DNA of 64,000 bases. Origin: Deltaproteobacteria bacterium (GTDB lineage: Bacteria; Desulfobacterota; Binatia; HRBIN30; JACQVA1). How positions within the stretch are numbered: the stretch's first letter is position 1; every line of letters starts with the position of its first letter. Below the pieces are notes generated by a model that was given only the letters and a program-made list of their open reading frames with translations, did not search any database and was not told the DNA's origin. Location of the stretch: the NCBI GenBank assembly GCA_016178705.1, contig JACOST010000028.1:378951-442950 (forward strand), given 5' to 3'. The translations under genes and the position numbers were made by a program. Shown here piece by piece: positions 20,484 through 23,700 of this stretch.

Positions 20484-22178
20484 CTATCGTTCGCGCGCCG
20501 CGCCGTTGCGCAGCAACTTGCCGGGCAGCGATCCGTTTGGATCCACCGCATCGGTCCCGTTGCGGCGGATGATGCGTCCGTTGACGATCACTGCGTCGAT
20601 GCCGGTGGCGTCGGCGACCAATCGATCGGCGCCAGCCGGCATGTCGCGCACGCGCCGCAGCTTACTGGCACCGACCGTCGTGGAATCGAACACCACTACA
20701 TCGGCGGGCACACCAACCGCCAGGCGGCCGCGATCGCTGATACCGAACACCTCGGCGGGGCGCGAGGTGAGCATCTGCACCGCGCGCTCTAGCGTCAGGA
20801 CTTTCTTCTCGCGCACCCAATGACCGAGCAGATGGGTCGAGAAGCAGGCATCGCACAACTGGCTCGCGTGCGCGCCGGCGTCGGACAATCCCAACACAGT
20901 ACGCTCGTCGCTCAGCAGCTCCGCGACTTCGTCGTCGTTGTTGTTCATCACCGCCATGCGGAAGCGGGCCTTCAGATCGGTTTCGACCGCAAGATCGAGC
21001 ATGCAATCGACCGCATCGATGCCCGCCGCACGGGCCACATCGGCGACCGTGCGGTCCTCCAGTTCGGGACGGTTCGGGCTGGACGAAATCTCCATCCGAC
21101 TGCACGCGCCGGTAAACGGTCCGGCCATGCTCGAGGCAAAGGTGTCCTTCACCGTCTGGCGGAAGGCCGGGTCGCGATACAGCCGCATCTTCCCCGCGAA
21201 GTCGGCGGCCGAGATGGGTTTGAACGCCGGCAGACTCTCGAAGGCGAAGGGCTCTTTGAAGTCGAAGTCGAACATCAGCGGCCGGCAGCTCACCTGCGGA
21301 ATGATCGGCAAGCCTTCGCGGACCAACTCGATCGAGCGATCGAGCAACATGCGATGCGAACCGGGTCCGAGCATGCCGGCGAGCAGGGCGGTCCACGTCA
21401 CCGGCCGTTTGATCTCGCGCGCCAGTTCGGCGAATTCGCCGAAGAACAGGCCGGGTCCAACGGTGGCCTGCACGACGCCGCGGCCAGCGTCGGCGAGCGC
21501 GCCGGCAATGGTTTTGATTTCGTCGAACTCCGCCACACGGCTGGGCACCGGCCGACCGCCATAGCCGACATGCGAAGGTGCCTTCGAGGTGGCAAAGCCG
21601 ACCGCGCCGGCGTCGATTCCAGCGCGGACGATCGCGCGCATCTGCGCGATCTCGTCAGCGGTCGCCGCGCGTTCGGTGGCGGCCTCGCCCATCACGTACA
21701 AGCGCACCGGCGTGTGGCCGATCAATACGCCGACGTTGATCGCCATGCCGCGCCGCTCGATCGCATCGAGGTACTGCGGGAAGGTCTCGAACGGCCACTC
21801 GCCGCCGATGCCGGCTTCGAGCGCTTCGAGGCTCATGCCCTCGACCTTCTCCAACGTCCGCAGAATTAGTCCGCGATGCGCCGGCCGCGTCGGCGCGACG
21901 CCGAAGCCGCAATTGCCCATCACCACCGTCGTGACCCCGTGCCACGGTGAGATCGTCAGCATGCGATCCCACAGCACCTGCGCATCGTAGTGGGTGTGGA
22001 TGTCGACGAATCCGGGCGCAACGACGCGATCGCGCGCGTCGATCGTCTGCGCCGCGCCGCCGTCGACACGCCCGAGGGCAACAACCTTACCGCCGCGAAC
22101 GCCGACATCGCCGACGAAACCGGGCGAGCCGGTGCCGTCGATGATCGTGCCGTTGGTGATTTTCAGATCGAGTTCCAT
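20484..22178 (-). CDS. N-acyl-D-amino-acid deacylase family amidohydrolase
   Basis: 564 residues from the ATG at 22178 (GGAGAAG just upstream); the longer frame to 22208 lacks support. D-aminoacylase/dihydroorotase-like fold: a small beta-sandwich (LKITNGTIIDGTGSPGFVGD) flanks a TIM barrel. The first metal motif is GFVDIHTHYDAQVLWD (H-x-H). The middle HTPVRLYVMG and GFATSKAPSHVGYGG regions match D-aminoacylases, and the C-terminal metal Asp lies in GLSDAGAHASQLCD. The end RPAEVFGISDRGRLAVG...DVVVFD is typical of the family. It probably hydrolyses an N-acyl amino acid or cyclic amide. It is the terminal gene after the GxxExxY insertion. Confidence 0.9.
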   Translation of the reverse strand: MELDLKITNGTIIDGTGSPGFVGDVGVRGGKVVALGRVDGGAAQTIDARDRVVAPGFVDIHTHYDAQVLWDRMLTISPWHGVTTVVMGNCGFGVAPTRPAHRGLILRTLEKVEGMSLEALEAGIGGEWPFETFPQYLDAIERRGMAINVGVLIGHTPVRLYVMGEAATERAATADEIAQMRAIVRAGIDAGAVGFATSKAPSHVGYGGRPVPSRVAEFDEIKTIAGALADAGRGVVQATVGPGLFFGEFAELAREIKRPVTWTALLAGMLGPGSHRMLLDRSIELVREGLPIIPQVSCRPLMFDFDFKEPFAFESLPAFKPISAADFAGKMRLYRDPAFRQTVKDTFASSMAGPFTGACSRMEISSSPNRPELEDRTVADVARAAGIDAVDCMLDLAVETDLKARFRMAVMNNNDDEVAELLSDERTVLGLSDAGAHASQLCDACFSTHLLGHWVREKKVLTLERAVQMLTSRPAEVFGISDRGRLAVGVPADVVVFDSTTVGASKLRRVRDMPAGADRLVADATGIDAVIVNGRIIRRNGTDAVDPNGSLPGKLLRNGAARER

Positions 22179-22192
22179 TTCTTCTCCAATTC

Positions 22193-22610
22193 GAAACCGC
22201 CGATGCACGCCGATGGACGCCGATCAGAACTGATTCATGATTCGTTTCACTTCAACTCGCGGAGCACCGAAGTTGATCAGCAGGGCAACGTGCAGGGAGG
22301 TTGCCTTCAGATAGTTCAAGCATTGAGCCACATGAATGGCGTCCAAAACCTTTGCGACCTTCAACTCAACTACGACGATTCCCTCGACCAACAGATCTGC
22401 GACATACTCGCCCACGACGGCGCCGTCGTAGCGAACTTGAAGGGGCCACTGTTGGTCGACTTGGATCCCGTTCTTTCGCAAATCATGGGCGAGCGCGTTC
22501 TCGTATACCTTCTCCAAGAATCCAAATCCCAGCCCATTCGCGACCGCATAGGCACACCCGATGATCCGCTCGGTCAAGCCGTCCAGAGATCGGCGTTCAT
22601 CGGCGGTTTC
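22193..22610. repeat. Inverted repeats bracketing the GxxExxY gene
   Basis: Plus-strand 22193-22214 reads GAAACCGCCGATG, one variable base, then CGCCGAT after an A. The minus strand of 22589-22610 reads the same 22 nt with a single mismatch (C versus A at position 14). On the left an extra GGACGCCGAT unit follows (22215-22224). The repeats enclose 374 bp containing almost the whole GxxExxY gene. The right copy encodes the first residues of that protein (TETADERRS). Confidence 0.75.
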
Positions 22611-22616
22611 AGTCAT
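22224..22616 (-). CDS. GxxExxY protein
   Basis: 130 residues. The family name motif is present as GFLEKVYENAL (G-x-x-E-x-x-Y), followed by the PD-(D/E)XK-like core VRYDGAVVGEYVADLLVEG and VVVELKVAKVLDAIH, where D and E-x-K match nuclease-fold active-site positions. The C-terminal end is INFGAPRVEVKRI. The family's function is not established; a nuclease-like or repeat-associated role is often guessed. Its start overlaps the upstream amidohydrolase stop by 8 nt. It is bracketed by 22-bp inverted repeats, unlike any neighbour. Confidence 0.93.
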   Translation of the reverse strand: MTETADERRSLDGLTERIIGCAYAVANGLGFGFLEKVYENALAHDLRKNGIQVDQQWPLQVRYDGAVVGEYVADLLVEGIVVVELKVAKVLDAIHVAQCLNYLKATSLHVALLINFGAPRVEVKRIMNQF

Positions 22617-23700
22617 TCAACCCGTACAGCTCCGCGACGTTGTCGTGCAGGATGAGGCGGCGATGCTCTTCGCTGAGCCGGGACGCGTGCTCCTTCAGCA
22701 CGTCCTGCGACCACGGCCAGGTGGAATCGCTGTGCGGGAAATCGTTGGCCCACATCAGGCGGTGCGGATTGACCATGTCGAGCATGCGGAACGCGACCCA
22801 ATCGTCTTGGAACGTGAGGTAGATGTTCTCGCGCATGTAGTCGCTGGGGAGCTTCTGGAGTTCCTTGCCGTGCAGCGAGTGTCGATGACGGGTGTAGTAG
22901 TGGTCCATGCGGTACATGTAATGCGGCACCCAGCCGGCATCGGCTTCGACGCAGATGATCTTCAGCTTCGGATGGCGATCGAACACTCCCCCATAGATGA
23001 GCATCGCGATGATGTCCTGATTGGCGCGAATGATCGTCACCGCGTGGTTGAGCACCGGGCCGCGCACGTCGCGCGCATTGCGAGTGGTGAGGATATGAAA
23101 CGACAGCGGCAGGGCGAGATCGATCGCAGCGTCCCAAAACTCGCCGTAGATCTCACTGTCGTAGTCGGCTTGGCCGGGTTGTCCCGGCAGCATCACTCCC
23201 TTGAGGCCGAGGTCCTTGATGCGCCGCAGGTCGGCGACGCCGTCTTGCGGCGTGCGCATCGCGGTCTGGCCGATGCCGAGGAGGCGGTCGGGATGGGCGC
23301 TGCAATACTCGGCGATCCACAAGTTGTAGGCGTCGAAGCAGGCCTTCTTGTAGTCGAGGTCCTCGTGATTGCAGAGCGGCATGCCGATGGTGGGATAGAG
23401 AATCTCGGCATTGACGCCGTCGCGATCCTGATCGGCCAGGCGCGCGTGCGGATCCCAACCGCCGCGGTGCCAGTCTTCGAAACGGCCGACGAGCGAAATG
23501 TCCTCCGGCCGCTTGCCGGCCGCGGCGACCAGACCCATCGGGATCGGCCGCGACATGCCGGGGATCACGAACAGATCGCCGCCGTTATCGGCGCGCACCA
23601 GGTGCGGTGCGCGATCGCGAAACGCGGGATCGATGTGTTTGCTGTAGGTGTCCGGTGGTTCAGTAATGTGCGAGTCCGCGGAGATGATCGTGTGGGCCAT
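22609..23700 (-). CDS. Amidohydrolase family 2 (metal-dependent TIM-barrel) protein
   Basis: 363 residues, single amidohydrolase-2 domain. ISADSHITEPPDTY carries the N-terminal D-x-H metal motif. LSFHILTTRN holds a barrel His. ICVEADAGWVPHYMYRMDHY and the C-terminal MWANDFPHSDSTWP give the final Asp and His ligands. This group includes ACMSD/5-carboxyvanillate-like decarboxylases and hydrolases; the substrate is unknown. The ATG at 23700 has AGGAGG 6 nt upstream. It is a relative of the tandem genes at 31875 and 33046, but clearly diverged. Confidence 0.9.
   Translation of the reverse strand: MAHTIISADSHITEPPDTYSKHIDPAFRDRAPHLVRADNGGDLFVIPGMSRPIPMGLVAAAGKRPEDISLVGRFEDWHRGGWDPHARLADQDRDGVNAEILYPTIGMPLCNHEDLDYKKACFDAYNLWIAEYCSAHPDRLLGIGQTAMRTPQDGVADLRRIKDLGLKGVMLPGQPGQADYDSEIYGEFWDAAIDLALPLSFHILTTRNARDVRGPVLNHAVTIIRANQDIIAMLIYGGVFDRHPKLKIICVEADAGWVPHYMYRMDHYYTRHRHSLHGKELQKLPSDYMRENIYLTFQDDWVAFRMLDMVNPHRLMWANDFPHSDSTWPWSQDVLKEHASRLSEEHRRLILHDNVAELYGLND

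Follow-up and report, generated by a model that had tools for sequence, protein, structure and literature searches.

The window, which is the whole 64,000-nucleotide stretch of DNA that was analysed, contains a small GxxExxY gene enclosed by inverted arms and placed between two amidohydrolase genes. The features at this locus are as follows.

22193..22610, unstranded: repeat-bracketed cassette of 418 bp, which fills the gap from an amidohydrolase stop codon to the next amidohydrolase start
22196..22224, + strand: left arm, three tandem units at 10-bp spacing, ACCGCCGATG C ACGCCGATG G ACGCCGAT, reading inward
22589..22610, - strand: right arm, made of two units (GAAACCGCCGATGAACGCCGAT as read on the - strand) that run opposite to those of the left arm and fall within the coding start
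22224..22616, - strand: GxxExxY gene, 130 aa, PD-(D/E)XK nuclease superfamily
22609..23700, - strand: upstream neighbour, a gene of the Amidohydro_2 family, the stop codon of which is overlapped by the right arm
20484..22178, - strand: downstream neighbour, a gene of the Amidohydro_3 family, with the ATG at 22178 read as its start

An earlier note on this DNA had described the same 22 nt in opposite orientation at both ends of a 418-bp unit, with the right copy inside the coding start (TETADERRS) and the unit abutting an amidohydrolase stop codon. Our analysis agreed on each of these points. The two 22-nt arms, at 22193-22214 and 22589-22610, are 95% complementary and have 374 nt between them. 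The stop codon of GxxExxY touches the left arm, and because the gene starts at the right arm's outer edge, this arm is translated, as MTETADERRS. When up to three mismatches were allowed, ACCGCCGATGNACGCCGAT matched the window three times, all at the cassette and twice with no mismatch, against 0.33 matches expected; three matches were obtained in 1 of 100 shuffles. The earlier description of paired 22-nt arms stood, but it had missed their composition from tandem units at 10-bp spacing, three in the left arm and two in the right (22589-22607). The left arm fits a three-unit consensus, which we wrote ourselves, at 24 of 24 specified positions. With the Amidohydro_3 start at 22178, this arm lies 14 nt upstream of the gene, while an alternative earlier GTG at 22208 falls inside it. 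When an empty counterpart of the window site was sought, the best matches of the two neighbour genes in relatives were mostly ~67-75% identical. The amidohydrolase pair (20484-23700) is also adjacent in four relatives (G044, G005, G007 and G021), but in the reverse order.

The window protein scored above the curated cut-off of TIGR04256 (140.5 bits; cut-off 35) and matched PF13366, PDDEXK_3 (137.2; cut-off 22), which was the sole family match of the cassette gene. Residues G32, E35, Y38, D74, E84-x-K86 and Q98 (window numbering) were invariant in 19 of 19 aligned diverse members. The earlier note had mentioned PD-(D/E)XK-like residues in GxxExxY proteins, and the PD-(D/E)XK active site of the window protein is, judging from its sequence, intact. 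The GxxExxY motif and the D...E-x-K residues presumably have a catalytic role; the name GxxExxY itself reflects the motif only. An AlphaFold2 model of the protein (pLDDT 95.5, pTM 0.88) had as its nearest solved folds, by Foldseek, 4ic1 (titled SSO0001; E 3.4e-4), a Cas4, and lambda-type exonucleases. In the VIA comparison, 4ic1 aligned to the model with Z 9.6 and rmsd 3.9 over 101 aligned positions, and the restriction-endonuclease-like protein 3ijm with Z 8.0; rows under Z 8 were left out of the interpretation. A sequence search for a PDB relative found none at E 1. GxxExxY is like Cas4, lambda exonuclease and RecB-like nucleases in its fold and in having D...E-x-K with an upstream E, but differs from them in being a protein of 130 aa encoded by a lone gene within repeats. 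The literature searched, some of it available in part and with most subscription journals outside its scope, described no function for GxxExxY. Carriage by viruses or plasmids was considered and set aside: GxxExxY was found in 0 of 50,697 phage records, in 8 of 72,556 plasmids and at 2 loci in viral contigs. Since they are rare or absent in these replicons, GxxExxY genes look like chromosomal elements.

The repeat recurs elsewhere in the genome of the window. In this 6.1-Mb genome, CNCNGATGNACNCNGATG matched 28 times (overlaps counted), as compared to 0 for the reversed pattern. The 28 matches fall into approximately 19 places, 11 of which, the window included, had an inverted pair in a half-site search, and the ten gene-less pairs span 97-361 bp. 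Eleven chosen gene-less copies, consisting of eight of these ten pairs and three places with a decayed second arm, aligned with a common interior and with ~25 nt conserved beyond one end; not included in this alignment were two copies with inserts, C27 and C30a, and the other single arms. As in MITEs, the gene-less elements are short and dispersed, with terminal inverted repeats and a common interior. The gene-less copies are thus a MITE-like family, with the window copy as a gene-bearing form. A second dispersed repeat (TCATACCGGCGAAAGCCGGTATC-like) is nested in a gene-less copy and occurs elsewhere in the genome (L026:1499-1726, L011).

The genome carries four GxxExxY genes, each with its own unit wording and each with a score of at least 18.5 in the inverted-arm test described below. 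Across its class, GxxExxY was found in 22 of 118 genomes. All seven genomes with at least five matches to the repeat pattern carried GxxExxY, as did eight of the nine with at least three. The co-occurrence was significant at either cut-off (Fisher p ~3e-6, 118 class genomes), although the nine genomes are not independent because all belong to one order. The reversed pattern matched at most once per class genome, and five of the 118 had such a match.

To compare loci more widely, we scanned a collection with one genome for each species (described as covering 84,980 species) with the protein and used the best 80 of at least 579 loci, a set that is skewed to relatives of the window's subfamily and comes mostly from MAGs, in which the assigned phylum may be mistaken. 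Arms were sought in a motif-free manner, by comparing 250 nt on the upstream side with the reverse-complemented 250 nt on the downstream side, and a score of at least 14 was counted as positive. Inverted arms were present at 58 of 74 testable GxxExxY genes from many phyla (six of the 80 loci were too short). In the same loci, placements of equal size gave 4 of 400 and the other ORFs 5 of 256; three of these five ORFs were themselves such repeats by inspection. Inverted arms were also present at 24 of 31 testable genes in the class sample (32 loci) and at 29 of 30 loci, one per genome, in Geothrix, the control placements being drawn from the 80-locus set only and not from the class or Geothrix sets. 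By these counts, most GxxExxY genes have flanking repeats and other genes have them far less often, so that neither of the refuting outcomes named in the earlier note applies. The particular repeat that had been proposed fared less well, as exact ACCGCCGATGnACGCCGAT was just one of many unit types, and a search for it would therefore miss most cases. A degenerate form of the noted sequence was found at 5 of 32 class loci, versus 24 of 31 by the motif-free test, and searching by that sequence alone was rejected. No scoring inverted pair was observed at 16 of the 74 loci, some of which have direct arms; arms that are direct, not inverted, surround GxxExxY at L105, L141, L151 and L159.

Most arms consist of three 8-10-bp units in a short tandem array, with regular spacing within each type. 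GAT-type units were spaced by 10 bp in 124 of 138 cases and AAT units in 25 of 25, AGGAT units by 9 bp in 17 of 18, and AAG units by 8-9 bp in 18 of 19. Inward-facing tandem cores, which were written after the arms of these loci had been inspected, were found at both ends in 37 of 74 loci versus 1 of 2299 controls. By our reading of the table, the same unit type stood at both ends in all 37. A tree of 81 proteins required 8 changes of unit type, as compared to 17.4 with shuffled labels (0 of 200 shuffles as low), with types assigned by eye and 13 of the 81 rows untyped. A Mantel test that used no typing gave a correlation between arm and protein similarity of r 0.50 over the 55 loci with a score of at least 16, which 0 of 2000 permutations reached; for the 1095 pairs from different phyla, r was 0.485 (again 0 of 2000). 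AAG-type ends were common to Chloroflexota and Thermodesulfobacteriota, and AGGAT-type ends to Verrucomicrobiota, Myxococcota and Planctomycetota. Two MAGs, one of a Brocadiaceae bacterium and the other of a Methanosarcinales archaeon, formed a GAT-type pair. Arm wording and protein lineage are, as the sequences indicate, inherited together across phyla. This co-inheritance is consistent with elements that are transferred as units, and falls short of proof of recognition or binding.

In whole genomes, the GAT-type pattern was found in 37 of 50 checked from the 80 loci, and the reversed pattern in 0 of 50. It was present in 27 of 29 genomes typed as GAT with 10-bp spacing and in 3 of 5 of the 9-bp GAT group, and also in 7 of the 16 assigned to types AAT, AGGAT or AAG, two AGGAT-type genomes having 18 and 29 matches. 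Type specificity at the level of the genome is therefore imperfect.

Orthologous sites with and without the element were found in relatives of other GxxExxY carriers, in collections with a single genome for each species. One intergenic site was searched for in 47 genomes of the genus that includes Geothrix paludis, giving 30 loci, 26 of which were resolved with both anchors. Twelve of these 26 were empty, ten held a gene-less repeat element, and four held a GxxExxY cassette, so that this Geothrix cassette has empty counterparts in relatives. In the empty sites the anchors are 80-81 nt apart, with a stop codon 9-10 nt before the next start. The gene-less copies, which are extragenic at this site, have several unit types, and two of them (L309 and L302) are decayed or complex; the four cassettes carry GTGATG-type units. 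Because several unit types occur there, the site may be a hotspot or an old converted site. A GxxExxY match was found in 40 of the 47 genomes. Gene-less elements persist in three of the seven without a match (G211, G219 and G224, the last perhaps incomplete since it comprises just 1.7 Mb), which fits non-autonomous remnants and also fits another driver.

A site in Spirosoma varies likewise, with repeat elements in L252-L255 and L259 and none in L257, L258 and L260. In place of the repeat cassette, L256, L261, L262 and L264 have at this site a different sequence of comparable length, which by reading seems to be a small gene. Such presence and absence at orthologous sites in Geothrix and Spirosoma resembles that of MITEs and DNA transposons. 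At an orthologous site in genus g4, three species have GxxExxY, while in a fourth, similar arms surround unrelated sequence with no gene. With regard to target duplications, one Geothrix copy, G244, is flanked by a perfect 12-bp duplication. Over 14 filled sites, the mean flank match was 8.2 for own pairs versus 7.7 for cross pairs, so that own pairs had no clear advantage. Direct matches of at least 10 nt were seen in 5 of 62 cases versus 0.9% of control pairs, with a nominal p of 2e-4 and irregular distances.

The arm counts relative to controls and the empty orthologous sites in Geothrix support the earlier proposal of a minimal mobile unit. We consider it probable that the window unit is a minimal mobile element, in which the GxxExxY nuclease would act on the tandem-unit ends and gene-less copies would be moved in trans. 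That GxxExxY works on these repeats, and that the element moves at all, we infer from the sequence comparisons. In one possible mechanism, the ends would fold to form a hairpin or cruciform to which GxxExxY binds. The protein might do so as an oligomer that places a protomer on each unit, a spacing of 10 bp being close to one turn of the helix. It would then nick or cut at the arms, the element would be copied or pasted into intergenic DNA, and host repair would complete the move. Gene-less hairpin copies may be moved in trans in the manner of REPINs, which are thought to be moved by RAYTs.

Two known systems resemble this element in their general plan. The first, REPIN/RAYT, has inverted doublets, predicted hairpins, dispersed copies and repeat groups tied to specific enzymes, according to PMC3116915. 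The GxxExxY element is similar in its dispersed inverted doublets, which are predicted hairpins, its gene-less copies and its dedicated enzyme. It differs in that the enzyme is of the PD-(D/E)XK type and not a Y1 HUH transposase, and that its arms each repeat an 8-10-bp unit in tandem, where a REP is one palindrome. Moreover, the Y1 genes examined in the window's genome have different repeats: four of its six Y1_Tnp matches (L342-L345; the two weakest were left out) have their own REP-like inverted flanks, and the triple-unit motif was found at none of these four RAYT-like genes. Because it has no Y1 enzyme, the GxxExxY element is not a REPIN/RAYT system. Movement of the element by the RAYTs of the genome is unsupported, as the repeats at these four of the six matches are unrelated to the GxxExxY arms.

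The second system is the intervening sequence (IVS) of 23S rRNA. The Coxiella IVS, as described in PMC4990558, is 428 nt long, has terminal inverted repeats with a 28-bp stem, is excised by RNase III, and contains a single S23p ORF with three tandem heptamers upstream. The two are alike in several respects: both are ~430 nt, with terminal inverted repeats, tandem short units and a single small ORF. Unlike the IVS, which is in 23S rRNA, the window unit has protein-coding genes on both sides, and so does the Geothrix site used for comparison; the cassette ORF belongs to PF13366, with a fold unrelated to the S23p four-helix bundle, and the units are of 8-10 bp where the IVS has heptamers. The GxxExxY element is therefore not an IVS, being outside rRNA and without S23p; the IVS plan is a precedent for one gene between inverted short-unit arms, without this enzyme, these units or this placement.

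The arm plan is not exclusive to GxxExxY, an idea that we rejected on examining four-helix-bundle genes (PF05635, 23S rRNA IVP). Inverted tandem-unit arms were found at 25 of 30 of these loci, which had no control placements of their own, and part of the high scores stems from long low-complexity arrays. Their arms (L222-L251) consist of units such as GTTCAAAGTTCAAAG or GCTTGAGGCTTGAG, often ~7 bp. As the plan is thus shared, there may be drivers other than GxxExxY. Accounting for both, hairpin repeat pairs might be moved by another agent, with the GxxExxY and four-helix-bundle genes as passengers caught between the arms. The gene-less elements in Geothrix genomes that have no GxxExxY match, and the genus g4 site where similar arms persist minus the gene, agree with such a history. 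However, arm wording tracks the GxxExxY lineage across phyla, which is not required of a passenger, the unit vocabularies of the GxxExxY and four-helix-bundle arms differ, and repeats and GxxExxY co-occur at the level of the genome. We consider passenger status unlikely.

A process at the level of RNA, similar to that of an IVS, is more doubtful still. Here the arms would pair in the transcript, RNase III or GxxExxY would excise the RNA, and the element would spread through an RNA intermediate. Besides the similar plan of the Coxiella IVS, two observations point in this direction. Six of the ten gene-less Geothrix copies are strong predicted hairpins, which fold at least 4 SD below mononucleotide shuffles. 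In addition, among the 59 of 80 loci with both neighbours, oriented from simple ORF calls, GxxExxY ran in the same direction as both flanking ORFs in 38, ran opposite to both in 4, and was in a convergent or divergent arrangement in 17. This bias may mean that antisense copies are selected against, that host transcripts are used, or that RNA is involved; it can also arise without RNA, if antisense insertions are selected against or the gene relies on host promoters. The fold, which is nearest to 4ic1, lambda exonuclease and the restriction-endonuclease-like 3ijm, also speaks against a process at the level of RNA. No known RNA family was recovered either, since 14 loci searched against Rfam, rRNA models included, gave no match at the gathering score.

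The arms could also be operator or terminator sites that regulate GxxExxY without any mobility, as they lie close to the gene and hairpins could end transcription. This is very improbable, given the dispersed gene-less copies in the genome and an orthologous Geothrix site that is empty in some relatives and holds gene-less copies in others. Spurious inverted repeats arising by chance in GC-rich DNA can practically be dismissed: GATG-like motifs are short and the reversed pattern matched once in each of five of the 118 class genomes, but in the window's own genome it gave 0 matches, versus 28 for the forward pattern, it gave 0 in the 50 genomes checked from the 80 loci, and same-locus controls gave 4 of 400.

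With a minimal mobile element as the preferred reading of the window unit, a broader proposal can be made, which we advance tentatively. Single-gene elements with inverted short-tandem-unit ends, encoding a PD-(D/E)XK nuclease and with a four-helix-bundle sister group, may constitute an unrecognised class of prokaryotic mobile DNA, present in bacteria and archaea, that is a source of many unexplained intergenic repeats. The nuclease alone, without a known transposase or recombinase domain, would drive movement through a lineage-specific code of 3 x 8-10 bp. No description of a GxxExxY repeat element was found in the literature searched, most subscription journals being outside its scope. We rate the element family as new, with a general plan that resembles REPIN/RAYT and the IVS and with movement and catalysis as predictions. 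If the proposal is correct, GxxExxY would be the enzyme of a minimal mobile element in many phyla and both prokaryotic domains, and would provide dozens of natural nuclease-repeat pairs with specificity readable from sequence. Families of gene-less intergenic repeats would be explained, and a route to DNA mobility by PD-(D/E)XK only would be added. The question would also be raised whether the IVS elements of 23S rRNA share this architectural class.

Some individual loci had arms or contexts of other kinds. In the class sample, the high-scoring locus L048 is a purine-rich array with a different look. A Gemmataceae GxxExxY (L153:3750-4600) has on both flanks a ~60-bp unit with approximately three repeats and CACGGA-type cores. 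In a Methanosarcinales MAG (L111:2021-5787), the GxxExxY cassette lies between hsdM-like and hsdS-like genes of type I restriction, named by reading, and a further inverted arm pair brackets the hsdM-like gene.
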